From: Bacteroides sp.
GTDB lineage: Bacteria; Bacillota; Clostridia; Lachnospirales; Lachnospiraceae
Assembly (NCBI GenBank): GCA_023666705.1
Contig: JAMPBO010000011.1
Span: 1 to 64,000, forward strand
Direction: 5' to 3'
DNA: 64,000 nt
Shown: positions 43,515 to 53,331 of the stretch, piece after piece
Numbering within the stretch: the stretch's first letter is position 1
Layout of the letters: every line of letters starts with the position of its first letter
Program-made: the position numbers and the translations under genes
Notes under the pieces: model-generated
What the model was told of the DNA's origin: nothing
Database searches by the model: none
Seen by the model: only the letters and a program-made list of their open reading frames with translations

Positions 43515-43548
43515 ATTAAAAACAAAAGGTCACAACGAATTGTGACCT
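43515..43548 (-). terminator. Terminator/attenuator directly after rpmH
   Basis: On minus AGGTCACAA and TTGTGACCT form a nine-base stem with loop TTCG, then TTTTGTTTTT. The rpmH stop TAG overlaps the stem. It should stop most transcripts before rnpA. Confidence 0.9.
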
Positions 43549-43681
43549 ACGCTGACAATCTTTTTCTTCCCTTTGCTCTTCTTGCGGCCAATACTTTTCT
43601 TCCATTGGAAGTGCTCATTCTCTTTCTGAATCCATGAACCTTTGATCTCTGTCTCCTCTTTGGCTGAAATGTCATTTTCAT
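43547..43681 (-). CDS. rpmH: 50S ribosomal protein L34
   Basis: The 44-codon gene reads [19 protein letters not shown] and continues [19 protein letters not shown] to RKRLSA, an unmistakable L34. GAAAGGAGA precedes the ATG. It is the last minus-strand gene before the polarity switch, as expected next to an origin, but it is separated from dnaA by 8 kb of accessory sequence. Confidence 0.98.
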
Positions 43682-43767: not shown

Positions 43768-43904
43768 GAAGTTTTTGCTATTTATTAGATATTTATTAGA
43801 TAGAAAATTTAAAAACAATCGCAAAAAATTATGATATTTTATACACATTTGTTCAATTATTAATATTTCCGTCCAACTGGTGAAATCTGCCCAGTACTAG
43901 GACA

Positions 43905-43942
43905 ATGTACTTATTTACATGGGTGTTTTGGTATTTTATAAT
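43905..43942 (+). promoter_or_regulatory. Promoter of unit A with dyad over the -35 box
   Basis: TTTACA (43914-43919), 17 bases and TATAAT (43937-43942) form the promoter. ATGTACTTATTTACAT (43905-43920) is a dyad with five-base arms covering the -35 box. The long leader (about 75 bases) reaches AGGAGG before the start at 44019. Confidence 0.75.
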
Positions 43943-44018
43943 TTATGTACGGCATATATTCATAAGCTACAGATTATATAATAATTGGAAGACACTTTTT
44001 ACTTTAGGAGGTATTTTC

Positions 44019-44384
44019 ATGAAAAGAAAGGTAATTGCTATTTTATTAAGCCTTATGCTATTTGGAGGTGCTGCATTGCAGACCTATGACAGTAAAGCTG
44101 CCACTTTAACAGTACAGTTAGCAAATGGACATAGTGGAGAAATGACATCTTCATCTAATAGTTCAGCAGTCTTGCAGGTAACTTGGTCTAATAAACAGGG
44201 AGAAAGCAAACTTACAGCCTTAAAAACAATAAATGCCATTACTGTAAATGTCAGCTTTGGCGGTTTTACCGCTTCAAAAAATCATCCATCGGATTTAACG
44301 AAAGGATTATCTGTAAGAGCAACAAAAGATGTAGGCTATGTTCACACCTATTTAAATGGAAGTGCTGTATATCAAATAAAATAG
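44019..44384 (+). CDS. Small secreted protein, unit A
   Basis: AGGAGG lies eight bases before the ATG at 44019; the longer open frame upstream is the leader. The 121-residue product has a signal peptide (MKRKVIAILLSLMLFGG, cleavage probably after DSKA at about 27). The mature part is about 94 residues, rich in Ser, Thr, Asn and beta-type alternation, with LQVTWSNKQGESKLTA and a C-terminal VGYVHTYLNGSAVYQI. It has no cysteine. I do not recognise a family. Size and neighbours would fit a bacteriocin-like or signalling protein, perhaps loosely like lactococcin 972, but that is a guess. Confidence 0.8.
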   Translation: MKRKVIAILLSLMLFGGAALQTYDSKAATLTVQLANGHSGEMTSSSNSSAVLQVTWSNKQGESKLTALKTINAITVNVSFGGFTASKNHPSDLTKGLSVRATKDVGYVHTYLNGSAVYQIK

Positions 44385-44459
44385 GTTCTAAATAATGATT
44401 TATATAGTCTGTAGCTTTATTAACTTTTAAGTATACTTGTTTATATTAGGAGATTGTAA

Positions 44460-45761
44460 ATGAAAATAAAACGAATAATTCCCATATTAATAGTTCTTGT
44501 TTTAATACTTGGTGCTTCCTTGTTTTTTATTATGAAAAAAAATAATAGTACTAACACCGGCAATAATACTTTGGTTTATCCGGATGAACATGGTGGGATG
44601 TATGGTGCTGCCACCCCTGACGGTGTTTTCTATGTATATATTAAAAACAATGGATATTTAGACTATTTTATCAGATTCATTGATTATGAAACAGGGCAGG
44701 ATATTGCCGTATGCAACAAACCGGAATGTTCACATGATACAAAAGACTGTAATGCATTTGTATGCAGAGCTGCTGCTGCACCTGATAATAAAATGGCATT
44801 TGACCTTTTTATGTTTAATAATAAATTATATATAACTGTTAGAGAGGGTGATGACGATGCCAGCGGTGTAAGCAGTATGTCATTATATGAGCAGGATTTT
44901 GACGGTGAAAACAGAAAACATCTTTTTACGCTGGACCATGAGCTGTTCCAGCAAATTGTAACCTTTGAAAATACAATTATTTTTTCAACTGCCTACACGG
45001 ATAAAACATTTATGAAACAATTTGAAGGTAAGGACATGTCACAGGTAACAGATGAAGATTATGAAGAAATGCAAAAACATAATTGTAATAGTCTATGGTC
45101 GTATAATACAGAAACCGAAGAACTTGTCAGGCTTCAGGAATCCTTTGGCGAACGTGAAAAAGAATATGCCATAGAATACATTATTGCATCCGATGATAGT
45201 CAGGGATTTTATTATGTTACTACCTTTGGTATTGATCGTTTCCAGTCATGGTATTATTATGACATTGCTTCCAATACATATGAAGAAATCATGACTGATT
45301 TTTCAAGTTGCGGTATATATTCCAAAATAAGAATTTATAATAAAAAGCTTTATTATTGTGACAAAGATACAGGTGATTTTTGTTGCTATGACATAAACAC
45401 AGGAGCAATAACCAAACTGGCAGCTTTGGACAATTATACAGATTCTTTCATATCTGACGATAAGCTTTTTTGGAATTTGGGCTACGGTGAAGATACAGAT
45501 TACGCAAAAACCTATCAGAGATGGGTTTACTTTGACTATAAAAAGGAAAAATTTTATATAGCGAAGGAAGGCGGACATTATCCGATTTACTCATCAGGGG
45601 AGAAAGGCATCGTCGATTATACGGATTATTACAGTATAGATACTTTACAATTAGAAAATGATGCATACGATTATCAGGTAACTGATATGAACCACTATTA
45701 TAAATCCTGTTATAAGGAATATGAAAATGAATATGCAGATGCATTATTAATCGCAAATTAG
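44460..45761 (+). CDS. Membrane-anchored extracellular protein, propeller-like, unit A
   Basis: The 433-residue product has one N-terminal membrane helix (about 7-26) and a large outside part. Repeated short blocks like LWSYNTETEELVRL, FYYVTTFG and DFCCYDINTGAITKLA suggest a beta-propeller of the kind found in DUF5050 and similar proteins. A distinctive CNKPECSHDTKDC segment (about 82-94) and another Cys pair (FCCY) could form disulfides or bind metal. It is 75 bases behind the secreted-protein gene and may bind, process or present it. The family is not firmly recognised. Confidence 0.75.
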   Translation: MKIKRIIPILIVLVLILGASLFFIMKKNNSTNTGNNTLVYPDEHGGMYGAATPDGVFYVYIKNNGYLDYFIRFIDYETGQDIAVCNKPECSHDTKDCNAFVCRAAAAPDNKMAFDLFMFNNKLYITVREGDDDASGVSSMSLYEQDFDGENRKHLFTLDHELFQQIVTFENTIIFSTAYTDKTFMKQFEGKDMSQVTDEDYEEMQKHNCNSLWSYNTETEELVRLQESFGEREKEYAIEYIIASDDSQGFYYVTTFGIDRFQSWYYYDIASNTYEEIMTDFSSCGIYSKIRIYNKKLYYCDKDTGDFCCYDINTGAITKLAALDNYTDSFISDDKLFWNLGYGEDTDYAKTYQRWVYFDYKKEKFYIAKEGGHYPIYSSGEKGIVDYTDYYSIDTLQLENDAYDYQVTDMNHYYKSCYKEYENEYADALLIAN

Positions 45762-45823
45762 TTTTTGACTATTACAGGAACCTTTCCCCTTCCAACTGGT
45801 GAAATCTGCCCAGAACTAGGACA

Positions 45824-45861
45824 ATGTACTTATTTACATGGGTGTTTTGGTATTTTATAAT
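45824..45861 (+). promoter_or_regulatory. Promoter of unit B with the same dyad
   Basis: TTTACA (45833-45838), 17 bases and TATAAT (45856-45861), with ATGTACTTATTTACAT (45824-45839) over the -35 box, repeat the unit A promoter base for base. Confidence 0.75.
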
Positions 45862-45937
45862 TTATGTACGGCATATATTCATAAGCTACAGATTATATAA
45901 TAATTGGAAGACACTTTTTACTTTAGGAGGTATTTTC

Positions 45938-46291
45938 ATGAAAAGAAAGGTAATTGCTATTTTATTAAGCCTTATGCTATTTGGAGGTACTGCATTGCAG
46001 ACCTATGACAGTAAAGCCATTAGCTTATCAGTATCAACAAACGGACCGCTTAATGGTAATGCTAATTCCTCCGGTACATTACAGGTATATTGGTCCAATA
46101 CGCAAGGAGAAAGTAAACTTACTGCTGGAAAAGATTTAAAAATAATTACTGTAAGTGTTAGCTTTGGTTCTTCCTATTCTTCAAAAAGTAAAGAGTATTT
46201 ATCAAGTGGAGATTCTTTAATAGCAACAAAAGATGTGGGATATAAACACTCATCATTATACGGGAGTTCTGTATATGAGATAAATAATTAA
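45938..46291 (+). CDS. Small secreted protein, unit B
   Basis: This is the 117-residue paralogue of the protein at 44019, with the same ribosome site and an almost identical signal peptide. The mature part keeps LQVYWSNTQGESKLTA, ITVSVSFG and a C-terminal KDVGYKHSSLYGSSVYEI but differs elsewhere, so the two probably act as a pair or with different specificities. It has no cysteine. It is followed by the unit B anchored protein 60 bases downstream. Confidence 0.8.
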   Translation: MKRKVIAILLSLMLFGGTALQTYDSKAISLSVSTNGPLNGNANSSGTLQVYWSNTQGESKLTAGKDLKIITVSVSFGSSYSSKSKEYLSSGDSLIATKDVGYKHSSLYGSSVYEINN

Positions 46292-46351
46292 TAAAAATCC
46301 TTTATTTTATATAGTCTGTAGCTTTATTATATTCAAAGTGAGGAAATTTAT

Positions 46352-47650
46352 ATGAAAACAAAACGAATCCTGTACATATTATTAACAATTTTTTTGTTGC
46401 TTGGCATTTTTCTGGTTTATGTTGTAAAAAAACAACATAAAACAAATACCGCCAATGAATCAATACTTTATACGAATGAACATGGTGGGATGCATGGTGC
46501 TGTTACACTTGACGGAGTTTTTTATATAAAGCTTGAAATTAATGGCTATATAGACTATTTTATCAGATTTATAGATTATAAGACAGGACAGGATATTGCC
46601 GTATGCAATAAGCCGGAATGTTCACATGATACAAGAGATTGCAATGCCTTTTTATGTAGGTCTGCACCTCCTGGTGAAGATAAAATGGCATTTCATATTT
46701 TTGTATTTAACAATAAGCTATACGTTTCGATTAGAGAAGGTGACGATAATGCTGCTGGCAGAAGCAGTATGTCATTATATGAGCAGGATTTTGACGGTGA
46801 AAACAGAAAACATCTTTTTACACTGGACCATGAGCTATTCCAGCAAATTGTAACCGTTGAAAATACAATTATTTTTTCTACTTCCTATACTGATAAAACA
46901 TTTATGAAACAATTTGAAGGTAAGGATATGTCACAGATAAGAGATGAAGAATATGAAGAAATCCGAAAACATGATTGCCATAGTTTATGGTCGTACAATA
47001 CAGAAACAGGTGAACTTGTTAAACTTCAGGAATCCTTTGGTGACCGTGAAAAAGAATATGCCATAGAAAACATTGTTGCATCCGATAATAAACAGGGGTT
47101 TTATTACGTAACTTATACAATAAATGACATTGAAGTATGGTACTACTATGACATCGCCTCCAACACATATAAAGAAATTATGACTGGCTTTTCAGCCTGT
47201 AATGTTTTTGGTGATATGAGAATTTATAATAAAAAGCTTTATTATTGTGACAAAGATACAGGTGATTTTTGTTGCTATGACATAAACACAGGAGCAATAA
47301 CCAAACTGGCAGCTTTGGACAATTATACAGATTCTTTCATATCTGACGATAAGCTTTTTTGGAATTTGGGCTACGGTGAAGATACAGATTACGCAAAAAC
47401 CTATCAGAGATGGGTTTACTTTGACTATAAAAAGGAAAAATTTTATATAGCGAAGGAAGGCGGACATTATCCGATTTACTCATCAGGGGAGAAAGGCATC
47501 GTCGATTATACGGATTATTACAGTATAGATACTTTACAATTAGAAAATGATGCATACGATTATCAGGTAACTGATATGAACCACTATTATAAATCCTGTT
47601 ATAAGGAATATGAAAATGAATATGCAGATGCATTATTAATTACAAATTAG
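46352..47650 (+). CDS. Membrane-anchored extracellular protein, propeller-like, unit B
   Basis: This 432-residue paralogue of the protein at 44460 has its own N-terminal helix (about 5-24), the CNKPECSHDTRDC segment and propeller-like blocks. Its last 140 residues are identical to unit A except one residue near the end. The middle differs at scattered positions. The ABC ATPase starts 13 bases after its stop, so unit B and the transporter are probably one transcript. Confidence 0.75.
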   Translation: MKTKRILYILLTIFLLLGIFLVYVVKKQHKTNTANESILYTNEHGGMHGAVTLDGVFYIKLEINGYIDYFIRFIDYKTGQDIAVCNKPECSHDTRDCNAFLCRSAPPGEDKMAFHIFVFNNKLYVSIREGDDNAAGRSSMSLYEQDFDGENRKHLFTLDHELFQQIVTVENTIIFSTSYTDKTFMKQFEGKDMSQIRDEEYEEIRKHDCHSLWSYNTETGELVKLQESFGDREKEYAIENIVASDNKQGFYYVTYTINDIEVWYYYDIASNTYKEIMTGFSACNVFGDMRIYNKKLYYCDKDTGDFCCYDINTGAITKLAALDNYTDSFISDDKLFWNLGYGEDTDYAKTYQRWVYFDYKKEKFYIAKEGGHYPIYSSGEKGIVDYTDYYSIDTLQLENDAYDYQVTDMNHYYKSCYKEYENEYADALLITN

Positions 47651-47663
47651 GGTGGTATATAAT

Positions 47664-48527
47664 ATGTTGGAAATTAAAAATTTAACGAAATATTACGGTG
47701 AACAATGTGCTGTAAATAATATTTCCATGCAGTTGTCGCCGGGAATCTATGGCTTTTTAGGACCGAACGGTGCAGGAAAAACAACCCTTGCCAATATGCT
47801 TGTAGGTAATTTAATTCCTACGGATGGTGAAATTTTATATGATGGATGTCCTATTTCAAAGCTTGGCAGTGAATATAGGGAAAAAATCGGTTTTATGCCT
47901 CAGCACCAAAGCATTTATGATTTTTTTTCAGGACGGCAATTTCTTTCATATATTGCAGAATTAAAAGATATACCTGAAAAAGAAATTAAAAATGAAGTAT
48001 TTCGTGTAATGACCTGGGTTAATCTCACAGAACAACTGGATATTAAAATTAAACATTATTCTGGCGGTATGAAACGCAGATTATTACTTGCACAGGCATT
48101 ACTTGGAAATCCCAAATTTATTATTTTGGATGAACCGACAACAGGGTTAGACCCAAAAGAACGGATACGAATGAAAAATGTTATTTCCAAATATGCAATG
48201 GATACCATTGTAATTATTGTAACCCATATTGTACCTGATATAGAATACATTGCAAAAGAAATTGTTCTTTTTAAAGAAGGAAAAATTGTAGAATGTGGCA
48301 CACCTGAACAATTGACGACCTCTATTGATGATAAAGTATATGAAATTTGTATTACCAATTCAGAATTAGATAATGTACAAAATAATTATCAAATCAGCAA
48401 TATAAGAAGAGAACATGAACATATTTATGTACGCATCATCACAGATGAGGAACCTGAAAATTTTCCATATGTAAAAGTAAAAGCTAATTTAGAAGAAAAA
48501 TATCTTTATGTTTTTGGAGAGGAGTAA
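47664..48527 (+). CDS. ABC transporter ATPase
   Basis: The 287-residue ATPase starts MLEIKNLTKYYGEQCA; AGGGTGG lies eight bases before the ATG at 47664. Walker A GPNGAGKTTLANML (about 34-47), Q-loop GFMPQHQSIYDFFS, signature HYSGGMKRRLLLAQAL, Walker B FIILDEPTTGLDP and switch VTHIVPDIEYI are all present. About 70 residues follow the core. The type is that of ABC-2 exporters for drugs, lantibiotics or polysaccharides. It pairs with the permease starting nine bases later. Confidence 0.92.
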   Translation: MLEIKNLTKYYGEQCAVNNISMQLSPGIYGFLGPNGAGKTTLANMLVGNLIPTDGEILYDGCPISKLGSEYREKIGFMPQHQSIYDFFSGRQFLSYIAELKDIPEKEIKNEVFRVMTWVNLTEQLDIKIKHYSGGMKRRLLLAQALLGNPKFIILDEPTTGLDPKERIRMKNVISKYAMDTIVIIVTHIVPDIEYIAKEIVLFKEGKIVECGTPEQLTTSIDDKVYEICITNSELDNVQNNYQISNIRREHEHIYVRIITDEEPENFPYVKVKANLEEKYLYVFGEE

Positions 48528-48535
48528 TATCCAAT

Positions 48536-50710
48536 ATGTTTAAAAAATCTATTTATCTAAGCATATATGATATGAAAAAGATTTTATCAAATAAAATATT
48601 CTGGCTCACATGTTGTATTAGTTTACTTTTTTTTATTATTGTGTGTTTTAATTATGGAAAAAACAAAGGATTTACCGACAAAAATTACAAATTATTAAAA
48701 AATTATATACAAACATATGATACAAACCAAATTCCAAATACAGATTCTGGAACAGGTGTAGATTATATAGTAAATACCTATAATAAAATAATTAAGGCAA
48801 AAGAAACCAACACATATATTCAAAATTATTCTTTTGTCAATACAGATTTTTCAGAAGAATATAACTTATTTTCATATATGAGAGCTGACATAGATGCCGC
48901 ATATTCCTATGCAGACTTTTTAAAAAATACAAGAGAAAATGCAGATTTAATTTCCAATATCTCAATTTTTTCGAAAAGTAAAAATGAATTTTCAAGACGA
49001 AATATTCAAAAAACAAAATCAGACTATGCTTCATTTTCTGAAGAAATTATATCATATACAGGAAGCCGTGGTATGTCAGAACTTTTACATATACCTGTTT
49101 ATCCTGTGATTATATTTGTTTTTTTATTTATATTAACAATTCTATTGGTAATCGATGATAGAAACAATCAATATAATAAACTTTATAACACTATGAAAAA
49201 TGGAAAAACTGTTTTATCTTTATCAAAAATTTGGATATTGCTATTCTTTTCTTTTGTATCCACATTTTTACTTACTTGTATATCATTGCTTATTTCAATA
49301 TTTCGTTATGGTTTTGTTGATATGACTTGTTCCATACAATCCTTTTTTGGCTGTTATAAAAGTATTTTTCACATAAAAATTATTACTTTTTTAGTTTTAT
49401 TATTTTTACTAAGATGGATTGGTGCTTTTATAATTGGCATTTGTCTTCTCGCCCTTACAAATATAATCTCAACCATCCAGATATATACCTTAATTTCAAT
49501 TTTAGTTTATGTAATTGGGCTTCTTTTACAAAATATAAAAGGCAATACACTATTTTCTTTAATGAAATATATTTCTCCTTTTTATTTGCTACAATCAATT
49601 GGATTTTTATCTGAATATAAAAATATAAATTTATTTGGTTACCCTATATTATTTACATATCCATCCTTTTTAGTATCTTTCATCATACTTGTGGTAATGG
49701 TTGTTCTTTTCATTATCGGTTATAACAAAGCTAATATCAAAGAGCCACTATTTCTTTCTTTTTCTTTGAGAAAAAAAACAGATAAAAATATTAAATTTAA
49801 AAGACATAGTATTTATTCATATGAAATGTATAAAATCCTTTTTGGAAGAAAATTATTACTTTTATTTCTATTAGTAGGACCATTATTCTATATTTATTTA
49901 ACACATACAACAAAACCTGAAAACTTTGACAGACAATATTATATGAGATATATGCATTCATATGAGGGAATACTTTCCGAAGAAAATATGAATCTGATTG
50001 AGACGGAATCTAAACGTTTAGAATCTGCATTTAAAAAACAGGAACAAATTCAGTCCCAATATGAAGCTGGAAATTTATCAATGTCAGAATATTTTCCTAT
50101 TATATCAAAATATCAGTCAATGACTATAAGCAGTGGGGGATTTTCGCTTGTAGAATCAAGACTGGATTATCTTTCAGAAAAAGATTTTACGAAATGGTTG
50201 GTATACGAGAAAGGTTGGTATATATTTTTAGGAATTGGAGGTTATGACCGTCAAAATTTTCTTATACTTGCATTTTCCTGTCTTTGTGTGATTATATCCG
50301 TATCAGGCATATTTCCTATGGAAGAAGAATGTCAGACTTCTTTCATTTTAAATACATGTAAACATGGTCAGAAAGATCTTGATAAAAATAAAATAAAAGC
50401 CAGTATCAGCTGCACTTTCATTTCATTTATAATAACATATTTGCCTTTATTTATATATTGTTGTCAATTATATGGCTTACACAGCTTTTTTGCTCCTACC
50501 CCATCACTTCCCCCACTGGAAAAAGTACCTTCATTTATTCCTATTTTCTTATTTACAATAATAGTTTTGACATTAAAATTTTTATTTTTATTATTTTTTA
50601 CAATATTTGTTTTATATTTATCAAAAAAGATGAAAAGTACACTAAAAACTTATATTACCGGAATATCTTTCCTTATAATACTAGTTGTTTGTTGTATTTT
50701 CATTACTTAA
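48536..50710 (+). CDS. ABC transporter permease, large ABC-2-like
   Basis: The 724-residue protein has about twelve hydrophobic segments in two halves. Each half begins with a helix and a large extracytoplasmic loop, for example residues about 40-180 and 460-570, followed by clusters of five or six helices. The halves look like two fused permease units, resembling large bacitracin- or lantibiotic-type and lactococcin 972-associated membrane proteins, but I cannot assign it to a family. It would export the small secreted proteins or protect the cell from them. The gene is strikingly AT-rich. Confidence 0.8.
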   Translation: MFKKSIYLSIYDMKKILSNKIFWLTCCISLLFFIIVCFNYGKNKGFTDKNYKLLKNYIQTYDTNQIPNTDSGTGVDYIVNTYNKIIKAKETNTYIQNYSFVNTDFSEEYNLFSYMRADIDAAYSYADFLKNTRENADLISNISIFSKSKNEFSRRNIQKTKSDYASFSEEIISYTGSRGMSELLHIPVYPVIIFVFLFILTILLVIDDRNNQYNKLYNTMKNGKTVLSLSKIWILLFFSFVSTFLLTCISLLISIFRYGFVDMTCSIQSFFGCYKSIFHIKIITFLVLLFLLRWIGAFIIGICLLALTNIISTIQIYTLISILVYVIGLLLQNIKGNTLFSLMKYISPFYLLQSIGFLSEYKNINLFGYPILFTYPSFLVSFIILVVMVVLFIIGYNKANIKEPLFLSFSLRKKTDKNIKFKRHSIYSYEMYKILFGRKLLLLFLLVGPLFYIYLTHTTKPENFDRQYYMRYMHSYEGILSEENMNLIETESKRLESAFKKQEQIQSQYEAGNLSMSEYFPIISKYQSMTISSGGFSLVESRLDYLSEKDFTKWLVYEKGWYIFLGIGGYDRQNFLILAFSCLCVIISVSGIFPMEEECQTSFILNTCKHGQKDLDKNKIKASISCTFISFIITYLPLFIYCCQLYGLHSFFAPTPSLPPLEKVPSFIPIFLFTIIVLTLKFLFLLFFTIFVLYLSKKMKSTLKTYITGISFLIILVVCCIFIT

Positions 50711-50738
50711 TTCATGGTATTTTCATTTAACTGGTACA

Positions 50739-50776
50739 ATGTACTTATTTACATGGGTTTTTGCTTATATTATAAT
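50739..50776 (+). promoter_or_regulatory. Third promoter with the shared dyad
   Basis: ATGTACTTATTTACAT (50739-50754) overlaps TTTACA (50748-50753); a 17-base spacer and TATAAT (50771-50776) follow. The sequence upstream starts ACTGGT, as in units A and B, but the 21 bases between ACTGGT and ACAATGTAC are missing. Confidence 0.75.
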
Positions 50777-50853
50777 AAAAATGATTTAATTTACATTTTA
50801 TTACAATTCTAAAATATAATAGTTTAATTAAAATTTTAAAGGATATTTTTAAT

Positions 50854-51225
50854 ATGAAGAAATTATTACTTTTATTATGTACTTTAACACTTTTGCTGTG
50901 CGGCTGCGGAAAAGATGATAAAAACACCACAACATCTGCAGCATCTTCCGATGATTCATGGACTTTCTCAAGCTCCCCTGATGAGGACAAGTCTGAATGG
51001 GATACTGTTTGTTCTACCTTAAAAAACGACTTACAAAATATGGAACATATTGAAAAAGTGGAAATTGAACCTGAAAACTATGATACTTACAAAGAACAAA
51101 AGAAGGCAACCATAACGTGTTATGTTGAAAACAATACTTCTCCAGACGAAGAAATAAAAAAAGGAATAAATGATTATGTCAAATCCATGAATTATTTTGA
51201 TGATTATTCTATTGTTTACGAATAG
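50854..51225 (+). CDS. Small lipoprotein
   Basis: The 123-residue product begins MKKLLLLLCTLTLLLCGCGK, with lipobox LLCGC (Cys19 predicted to be lipidated), then an acidic Ser/Asp-rich linker and a folded domain of about 75 residues without known motif. It shares the promoter dyad with units A and B, so it probably belongs to the same system, for example as an immunity or sensing lipoprotein. That role is inferred from context only. Confidence 0.7.
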   Translation: MKKLLLLLCTLTLLLCGCGKDDKNTTTSAASSDDSWTFSSSPDEDKSEWDTVCSTLKNDLQNMEHIEKVEIEPENYDTYKEQKKATITCYVENNTSPDEEIKKGINDYVKSMNYFDDYSIVYE

Positions 51226-51279
51226 AATAATTCTAATTCAGTTTAAATACTTTATAACAATAGTTTAGGAAGGGATTAT

Positions 51280-51507
51280 ATGTATACGATAATTTTATTA
51301 CTAACATCATTAGCAGGAGCTATTTTAGAAACACCTTTAACAGGCACTGAAACAACATCAAATTATTACTTTTATGAATCCGAAATACATGATTCAGAAG
51401 ACTTAACATTGATAAAAGAAGAATGTTTTTCTGGCGGTTTCTATTATTATGTTCCAGAAACGGATAATTCAAATATCTTTACAATAATAAAAGAACAATT
51501 AAAATAA
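51280..51507 (+). CDS. Small hypothetical protein
   Basis: The 75-residue product starts MYTIILLLTSLAGAILE with a short hydrophobic stretch and then an acidic, Tyr-rich part (YYFYESE, FYYYVPE). AGGAAGG precedes the ATG. It lies 54 bases after the lipoprotein gene and ends before the origin. It could be secreted or membrane-attached. No family is recognised. Confidence 0.5.
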   Translation: MYTIILLLTSLAGAILETPLTGTETTSNYYFYESEIHDSEDLTLIKEECFSGGFYYYVPETDNSNIFTIIKEQLK

Positions 51508-51607: not shown

Positions 51608-51655
51608 AAATACTATCATATTAAATTTTATTATTAAGTATGATAGTATTTTTAT
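51608..51655 (+). terminator. Terminator at the end of the accessory cassette
   Basis: AAATACTATCATA (51608-51620) and TATGATAGTATTT (51639-51651) form a perfect 13-base stem followed by a T-run that merges with the first DnaA box. It would insulate the origin from cassette transcription. Confidence 0.8.
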
Positions 51656-51790
51656 CCACATTTTTTTTAATTTCCATAATGTATTTACATAATGTTATCC
51701 ACAAAATGTGTTTAACCTGTTGATAACTTGTAGAATTGTTGTTGATTTACATGCTTTACCCCTATTTTTCTACATTTTATAATTGTTGAT
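51652..51790. other. oriC: Replication origin region (oriC) upstream of dnaA
   Basis: Two perfect DnaA boxes TTATCCACA (51652-51660 and 51695-51703) and a near-match TGTTGATAA (51718-51726), then weaker TGTTGATT-type sites, lie in a very AT-rich stretch between the terminator and the dnaA promoter. Gene polarity changes across this region. The dnaA-dnaN gap (53332-53600) has a few degenerate boxes and may be the second half of a bipartite origin, as in Bacillus. Confidence 0.88.
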
Positions 51791-51954: not shown

Positions 51955-53331
51955 ATGAAAGCTTTAATAGAAAGTAAATGGGAAGATATTTTATCTCTTT
52001 TAGAAACACAGTACGACATTTCTTCTATTATGATTAATACATGGATTCGTTCCTTAAAAATATACGAAGTAAAAGATAATACCATCTATTTTTTTGTTGA
52101 CGAAAAGCTTGGTGAAAATGCTGTCAAATTCCTACGAAGGAAAGAATTTGACTTATTTTTATTGTCTTCCATCAGGGAAACATTAAACGACAGCAATATC
52201 GAAATTATCATTGACGAAAAAAAGAATTTCTGTTCTAAAGAAGATACAGAGGCAGAAAAAAATACCCAGTCTGAATCTTATAAGGAAGCAATCAGCAGAA
52301 GTAATTTAAATCCAAGGTATACATTTGATACATTTATTGTAGGTGATGGTAACAAACATGCCCATGCCACATGTCTTGCTGTTGCGGATATGCCGGCTCA
52401 GGATAATTTTAATCCTTTATTTTTATATGGAAATTCAGGACTTGGCAAAACACATCTTATGCAGGCAATTGCCCATTACATTCTGCAAAAGGATGACAAT
52501 ATCAATGTTTTATATGTTCCATCAGAGGTATTTACAAATGAAATTATAGATGCCATAAGAAACCATACTACAACAGAATTCAGGGAGAAATACCGAAAGG
52601 TGGACGTTCTTCTCCTTGATGATGTTCAATTTTTGATTGGTAAGGAAAGCACACAAAATGAATTTTTCCACACCTTTAATTCATTGTATAATGATAAAAA
52701 ACAGATTATTTTATCATCGGACAAGCCACCAAAGGAAATAAAAACACTTGACCAAAGAATTATTTCAAGGTTTGAGTGTGGAGTTCCCATTGATATACAT
52801 GAACCTGATTATGAAACACGTATGGCGATACTAAAGAATAAAGCGGAAATGGATCACCTTAAGGGTATTCCGGATGAAGTTTTTTCTTACATAGCAGAAA
52901 ATATTACCAACAATGTCCGTGAGCTGGAAGGTGCCTTAAACAAAATCGGTATTTTCTCCAAGCTTATGAATGAGAATGTTACACTTGAAACTGCAAAGGA
53001 ATCACTGAAAGATATTATAAATAAAGATAATATCGTAGCCATAACCCCTGACATTATTATTAAGACAGTTTCCGAGCATATGAACATTTCTGTGGATGAT
53101 ATATGTTCCAAAAAGAGAAGTCAGGACATTGCTACTGCAAGACAAATTGTTATGTACCTTTGCAGGGAATACACGGTTCTTGCACTAAAATCAATCGGTA
53201 ACGCTGTAGGAGGAAAAGACCATGCTACAGTTATCAACGGTATAAAGAGAGTAGAGGAAAAGCTGCTGGTTGACCCTTCCTTCAAAGCTACCGTTGATAC
53301 AATTATAAAAAAACTGAATCCTAACAAATAA
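51955..53331 (+). CDS. dnaA: Chromosomal replication initiator protein DnaA
   Basis: DnaA binds DnaA boxes and opens the origin. The 458-residue product has the N-terminal interaction domain (about 1-75), a short acidic linker, the AAA+ core with Walker A GNSGLGKTH (about 162-170), Walker B VLLLDDVQF and the sensor region, and the C-terminal HTH with GGKDHATVINGIKRVEEK. TGGAGGA precedes the ATG. It begins the conserved dnaA-dnaN-S4-recF-gyrB-gyrA block. Confidence 0.99.
   Translation: MKALIESKWEDILSLLETQYDISSIMINTWIRSLKIYEVKDNTIYFFVDEKLGENAVKFLRRKEFDLFLLSSIRETLNDSNIEIIIDEKKNFCSKEDTEAEKNTQSESYKEAISRSNLNPRYTFDTFIVGDGNKHAHATCLAVADMPAQDNFNPLFLYGNSGLGKTHLMQAIAHYILQKDDNINVLYVPSEVFTNEIIDAIRNHTTTEFREKYRKVDVLLLDDVQFLIGKESTQNEFFHTFNSLYNDKKQIILSSDKPPKEIKTLDQRIISRFECGVPIDIHEPDYETRMAILKNKAEMDHLKGIPDEVFSYIAENITNNVRELEGALNKIGIFSKLMNENVTLETAKESLKDIINKDNIVAITPDIIIKTVSEHMNISVDDICSKKRSQDIATARQIVMYLCREYTVLALKSIGNAVGGKDHATVINGIKRVEEKLLVDPSFKATVDTIIKKLNPNK

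Follow-up and report, generated by a model that had tools for sequence, protein, structure and literature searches.

Background

Producers of lantibiotics protect themselves with LanI lipoproteins and LanFEG pumps. Lactococcin 972 (PF09683/TIGR01653; PDB 2LGN) is encoded by a three-gene operon and, in the accessible part of the source, the presumed immunity and transport functions of lactococcin-972 loci are described as unverified (PMC11796350). Mediterrocin (NF052268) of Mediterraneibacter gnavus, the closest characterised analogue that we found, is according to the available text a 114 amino acid (aa) precursor with a 25-aa signal and an 89-aa mature part, shares 18 % identity and a similar predicted fold with lactococcin 972 and lies in a cluster that also holds a DUF1430 protein and an ABC protein; gene disruption confirmed its role in activity, while the synthetic protein failed to reproduce it, which was put down to folding (PMC12345188). 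Here we describe a recurrent, so far unnamed gene system, a cassette of eight open reading frames (ORFs) on the plus strand that fills the gap between rpmH and dnaA in a 64,000-nucleotide stretch (the window; C2:1-64000 of source genome G000, 2.86 Mb in 31 contigs).

Results

Gene content of the cassette

Two pairs of a small secreted protein and a membrane-anchored protein, an ABC ATPase, a 724-aa permease, a lipoprotein and a 75-aa ORF were all found where a sequence-only reading of the window had placed them (Table 1). The anchored proteins, which that reading called propeller-like, are beta-propellers as judged from an AlphaFold model (pLDDT 75.4, pTM 0.76) with which Foldseek retrieved 550 PDB chains at E ≤ 1e-3; the best 50 of these are propeller proteins by title or general knowledge, and EUBREC_1955 of Eubacterium rectale (PDB 3s25), a '7-bladed beta-propeller-like protein', is among the closest known. 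The two halves of the permease are homologous (hhalign E 1.5e-24, 24-sequence alignment A8). Six of the 24 aligned permeases match PF12698 and four PF12730 at E ≤ 0.1 (best 2e-12), although the window permease itself, unlike these relatives, has no ABC-2 Pfam match; with the family match in relatives and the two related halves, its sequence assigns it to the ABC-2 type exporters. The ATPase matches PF00005 (E 1.1e-29) and, in NCBIfam, drrA best and also the galliderm_ABC model TIGR03740, both under their cut-offs.

The small secreted proteins are free of cysteine as the sequence-only reading had it. Their starts had to be corrected to 44019 and 45938, which are most likely because AGGAGG sits just upstream; the longer mechanical ORFs (43905, 45824) start within the promoter repeat. 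By reading of the sequence they carry an ordinary Sec-type signal of about 27 aa, with neither a lipidation cysteine nor an LPXTG-like end. Neither the small proteins nor the propellers fall into a curated Pfam, NCBIfam or PHROGs family, scans with the hidden Markov models of these collections did not place all parts in one characterised system, and no lanthipeptide or polymer-synthesis family was found among the eight proteins in the Pfam and NCBIfam scans. Neither the small proteins nor the permease found more than chance-level matches in sequence searches of the PDB. A cupin fold, top-ranked by Foldseek for the small protein (E 0.007), was discounted at TM-scores of about 0.2, as was a weak Usher match of small protein 2 (E 0.0036, far under cut-off). 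An anti-phage defence role was dropped after PADLOC scans of six of the eight proteins, in which the ATPase cross-matched model parts (best mad3, 2.1e-27) and the only other match was a partial one to the permease (E 0.0033).

The propellers share a C-x4-C-x-H..C site for which a metal or structural role may be suggested. It is without exception in alignments A2 (33 rows) and A7 (48 rows), a constancy that is partly built in, as the choice of rows relied in part on the C-x4-C-x-H motif, on which the GTDB search pattern also lies. The site lies within 280 residues in 188 of 203 profile matches and in 52/52 strong full-length ones; the 15 without it are mostly fragments, the long ones being in L133 (437 aa), L137 (443 aa), L167 (368 aa, contig end) and L041 (830 aa). 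Among related propellers, several Clostridia metagenome-assembled genomes (L136, L139, L140, L151, L152, L154) show the protein as two adjacent frames, the second of about 200-220 aa, from either a split gene or an assembly effect, and L041:5265-14664 encodes propeller-type proteins of 830-840 aa near BlaR1/MecI-like pairs (by size and transmembrane (TM) count) and a small secreted gene.

Comparison with lactococcin-972, mediterrocin and lantibiotic systems

Mediterrocin, as far as the available text describes it, shares with the window small proteins the bacterial family, a Sec-secreted precursor of similar size, an ABC protein in the cluster and a patchy distribution; its partner, however, is a DUF1430 seven-TM protein, whereas a fused ABC-2 permease and a propeller accompany the window proteins. 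In contrast to the lactococcin 972 operon, the cassette has a propeller gene in between, a tandem duplication of the small and propeller genes, no sequence-model match and no DUF1430 in the permease. Neither small protein matched PF09683 or TIGR01653 at E ≤ 10 in scans in which L250 and L258 passed PF09683 and L250 passed TIGR01653, nor did they match NF052268 at this threshold, as L249 (1.2e-36) and L257 (1.2e-38) do. PF07242 (DUF1430) was found neither among the 24 aligned permeases, the window's included, nor in the whole source genome, while 22 of 299 family genomes do match. A PF09683 search of 295 genomes of the order gave no match but, with its controls also unmatched, shows no absence. 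Profile-profile comparison of the small-protein alignment (A6) with mediterrocin-type (A10) and lactococcin-972-type (A11) alignments gave probabilities of 0.1 and 0.2 %, a test that cannot decide, since A10 against A11 also gave 0.3 % though these groups are reported to be structurally alike; the same weak test gave no link to the small families of L194 and L113/L116.

Lantibiotic self-protection likewise sets a surface (lipo)protein and an ABC pump beside a secreted antibacterial, and the window ATPase scores 147.2 bits on TIGR03740 (cut-off 309.75), but the window pump has one fused permease, the anchored protein is a 430-aa propeller and there is no lanthipeptide family. By the tests made, the cassette falls outside the lactococcin-972, mediterrocin and LanFEG families, although it may work like them. 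Judged by title and start of abstract, none of the papers listed deals with a propeller that confers immunity in an ABC system for a bacteriocin, from which absence from print is not claimed; Formosin D was left unexplained by the papers listed, and no paper was found that joins 'formosin' with 'bacteriocin'.

Lachnospiraceae loci of the lactococcin-972/mediterrocin type encode an additional membrane-anchored protein, about 150-180 aa long, which has the stretch P-x-Y-L ... GNL in common (L249:2274-2723, L256:2063-2503, L257:4766-5257, L262:5440-5970), possibly a further immunity component.

Recurrence of the gene order

A window propeller as query found matches in 19 of 200 family genomes and 8 of 37 genus genomes, its own included. 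Each of the 16 strong matches of the window permease in the genus genomes (E ≤ 1.5e-30) is no more than 2.7 kb from one of the 21 strong propeller matches (E ≤ 1e-60); a 17th (E 1.9e-5) is not this close to any of them. Conversely, 18 of the 21 propellers stand beside a permease, and the three that do not (G202:C33, G202:C17, G203:C38) each adjoin a small secreted gene. The small-protein profile (A3) gave 15 matches, of which all 13 strong ones are at most 220 bp upstream of a propeller and the two weak ones are not; ten of the 13 built the profile, leaving G219:C3, G202:C33 and G203:C38 as independent. Set aside were the two weak small matches, one weak permease match (G224) and the propeller matches weaker than E 1e-60, mostly N-terminal fragments together with 677-696-aa relatives (about 1e-10), one of which adjoins another ABC system in L081.

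In a GTDB scan, alignment A4 yielded 147 pattern matches, of which 115 were confirmed; 79 loci were analysed, and 35 confirmed stretches fall outside these. With the window added, both ABC and permease genes are found within four genes of the propeller, the CNKPEC protein of the sequence-only reading, in 61 of 80 loci, a permease only in 10, an ABC gene only in one and neither in eight, counting loci at contig ends as they stand. Since the gene order recurs in other species, the arrangement is not due to chance. A small secreted gene, called in the 79 loci by a crude hydrophobicity rule for signals, is the immediate upstream neighbour of 18 of 126 propeller genes; the same holds for 16 of 482 other genes but for none of the 68 ATPases or 84 permeases. 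The propeller-ABC-permease module occurs in genomes titled Lachnospiraceae, Ruminococcus, Oscillospiraceae, Clostridium, Longibaculum and Erysipelotrichaceae, among others, the closest locus among the matches listed being that of an uncultured Lachnospiraceae bacterium (L128).

Gene labels in variant loci rest on motif, size and TM count. Response-regulator- and kinase-like genes accompany the module, with no small gene, in L144, L145, L155, L165, L166, L171, L178, L183 and L200, and the same variant is seen in genus copies L069, L072 and L078 and in the source genome itself (G000:C29 ~108000-114500). Arrays of six to eight propeller genes (L195:4666-15935, with eight; L181:7570-17261; L202:8791-18335) are flanked on either side by permease-family genes and followed by an ABC gene, and contain no small secreted gene; L041 has an array with BlaR1/MecI-like genes nearby. 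An anchored ORF of about 450-520 aa adjoins the propeller in L031, L034, L037, L047, L048 and L075.

Divergence of the two units

The two window units are paralogous. Their leaders and signal peptides are near-identical while the mature small proteins are 53 % identical, and the propellers diverge over the first 300 codons and are near-identical beyond, with an identical tract in the 3′ part of the genes that looks like the product of gene conversion. The signal peptide was more conserved than the mature part in 12/12 paralogue or orthologue pairs, and mature-part dN/dS in these pairs was 0.25-0.81; the mature part therefore changes fast, with no positive selection detected in the 12 pairs. 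One propeller segment (L073b/L161, codons 150-300) reached a dN/dS of 1.68, a curiosity among 36 segments, three of which were not measurable and in which masked codons of L073 were skipped.

The rpmH-dnaA gap as a probable exchange site

The flanking genes, which we take to be rpmH and dnaA from general knowledge of their sequence, enclose a cassette of lower GC content than the window (0.299 vs 0.367). The two exact matches to the DnaA-box consensus place it between rpmH and an origin-like region. We could obtain the interval for 17 of the 30 congeners with a dnaA match. In G234 the gap (5,433 bp) holds one small and propeller unit, an ABC gene and a permease, with no lipoprotein match. Among the other 16, it measures 404-506 bp in nine, and four have no rpmH on the contig and hence no length. 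G220 (4,389 bp) and G203 (4,188 bp), and G233 where a contig end cuts it, contain a different cassette, which encodes a 140-aa secreted protein, an anchored protein of 218-225 aa, two permeases and an ATPase (L113:841-4296, L116:2588-6028 and L112:2975-5850, the last cut by the contig end with its secreted gene off the contig). Profiles of the window permease, small protein and propeller had no match in these three intervals. Only the ATPase of the different cassette has more than a weak match (NCBIfam for the L113 proteins and the L116 secreted protein; Pfam without the ATPase), scoring best on the lantibiotic-protection model at 177.6 bits (cut-off 309.75). The simplest reading is that whole cassettes have been exchanged at a fixed rpmH-dnaA site.

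A 48-nt element (TTTACA-17-TATAAT) precedes each small gene and the lipoprotein gene. Allowing up to three mismatches it occurs at four sites in the 37 genomes, the three window units and G234, with none for a reversed control. A 45-nt copy of 82 % identity (E 2.7e-9) lies ahead of the small gene in the different cassette of G220, but none was detected ahead of the G203 small gene or of those in the seven other small and propeller units compared, five of which share a different leader. The lipoprotein has two good homologues in G205; one (L208:1501-1899) immediately follows the genes for an ABC ATPase and a permease and the other (L213) does not, hinting that the lipoprotein, too, may belong to ABC systems.

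Table 1 Features of the rpmH-dnaA region in the window
Feature	Position	Strand
rpmH (44 aa), left flank	43547..43681	-
Leader of unit 1 with promoter element (TTTACA from 43914, TATAAT to 43942; 17-nt spacer)	43869..44018	+
Small secreted protein 1 (121 aa; signal ~1-27; mature part predicted all-beta)	44019..44384	+
Propeller protein 1 (433 aa, N-terminal TM anchor)	44460..45761	+
C85-x4-C90-x-H92-x4-C97 site of propeller 1	44712..44750	+
Tract identical between propellers 1 and 2	~45327..45725	+
Leader of unit 2 (98.7 % identical to unit 1 leader)	45788..45937	+
Small secreted protein 2 (117 aa)	45938..46291	+
Propeller protein 2 (432 aa; 81 % identical to propeller 1)	46352..47650	+
ABC ATPase (start GTG 47652 or ATG 47664)	47652..48527	+
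Fused two-half ABC-2-type permease (724 aa)	48536..50710	+
Third promoter-element copy, ahead of lipoprotein	50730..50776	+
Small lipoprotein (123 aa)	50854..51225	+
75-aa ORF, no match	51280..51507	+
DnaA-box cluster: exact TTATCCACA at 51652 and 51695; one-mismatch box at 51718 (-)	51652..51726	
dnaA, right flank	51955..53331	+

Discussion

The sequence-only reading had proposed a toxin, signal or surface-protein export and immunity system. Part of this is supported. The gene content, the recurrence and the presence of different cassettes at one site are directly supported, as are the propeller fold (in the model), the ABC-2 pump with its two homologous halves and the faster change of the mature part than of the signal peptide. 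We favour an accessory, exchangeable bacteriocin-like cassette of secreted toxins, propeller partners and ABC-2 self-protection, a proposition that we weigh at about even, because it best covers the pairing, the co-duplication, the pump-less pairs, the patchiness and the cassette swapping. The small proteins would exit by the Sec route, fold as compact all-beta proteins and act on neighbouring bacteria. Each would be bound by the surface beta-propeller encoded next to it, and propeller, ATPase and fused permease together would keep it off the producer's own membrane or cell-wall precursors, probably by expulsion, a scheme modelled by analogy on LanI and LanFEG. Against this speak the many propeller-ABC-permease modules without a small gene, some with two-component-like genes, and the fact that the antibacterial activity of the small proteins is itself presumed.

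These modules make a role in envelope-stress or antimicrobial-peptide sensing or resistance a real rival, if an unlikely one, in which foreign compounds would be caught by the propeller and passed to the ABC-2 exporter, the small protein serving as decoy, sensor or scavenger instead of as a weapon. The response-regulator- and histidine-kinase-like neighbours of several copies that lack a small gene, recognised by short motifs only, fit such a role, as does the spread of the family, judged by record titles, through Clostridia and Erysipelotrichia-type genomes, but it leaves unexplained the joint duplication of small and propeller genes, the pairs without a permease and the lack of any strong small-protein match without a propeller in the 37 genus genomes. 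Slightly less probable still is surface display or assembly, whereby propeller and permease would help the small protein to fold or to become anchored, or else would export a partner polymer. The small and propeller genes are physically paired, and polymers and lipids are among the substrates that ABC-2 exporters can transport; however, the small proteins have an ordinary Sec signal with no lipidation cysteine or LPXTG-like end, permease modules without small genes are common and the eight cassette proteins include no polymer-synthesis family. Nutrient or metal acquisition with the propeller as ligand-binding component is very improbable: the 450-520-aa anchored ORF could, as a guess from size, be solute-binding and the C/H site could hold a metal, but ABC-2 permeases are exporters as a rule, the window cassette has no such ORF and swapping at one site fits conflict genes better.

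A bolder and more tentative possibility is a separate class of interbacterial conflict system, in which secreted all-beta toxins would each have a matching C-x4-C-x-H..C surface propeller that captures its cognate toxin and hands it to a fused ABC-2 pump. Arrays with as many as eight propellers would then serve as immunity or receptor repertoires, and weapon cassettes of different build would be swapped behind a shared promoter in the rpmH-dnaA gap, close to the origin.

Conclusions

An origin-proximal hotspot with interchangeable cargo would be a good place to seek further such genes. If the bacteriocin-like reading is true, the cassette would belong to a so far unnamed arsenal that gut Firmicutes protect themselves against by an immunity principle of its own, and would offer testable candidates for the immunity step that the accessible text on lactococcin-972 loci describes as unverified (PMC11796350).
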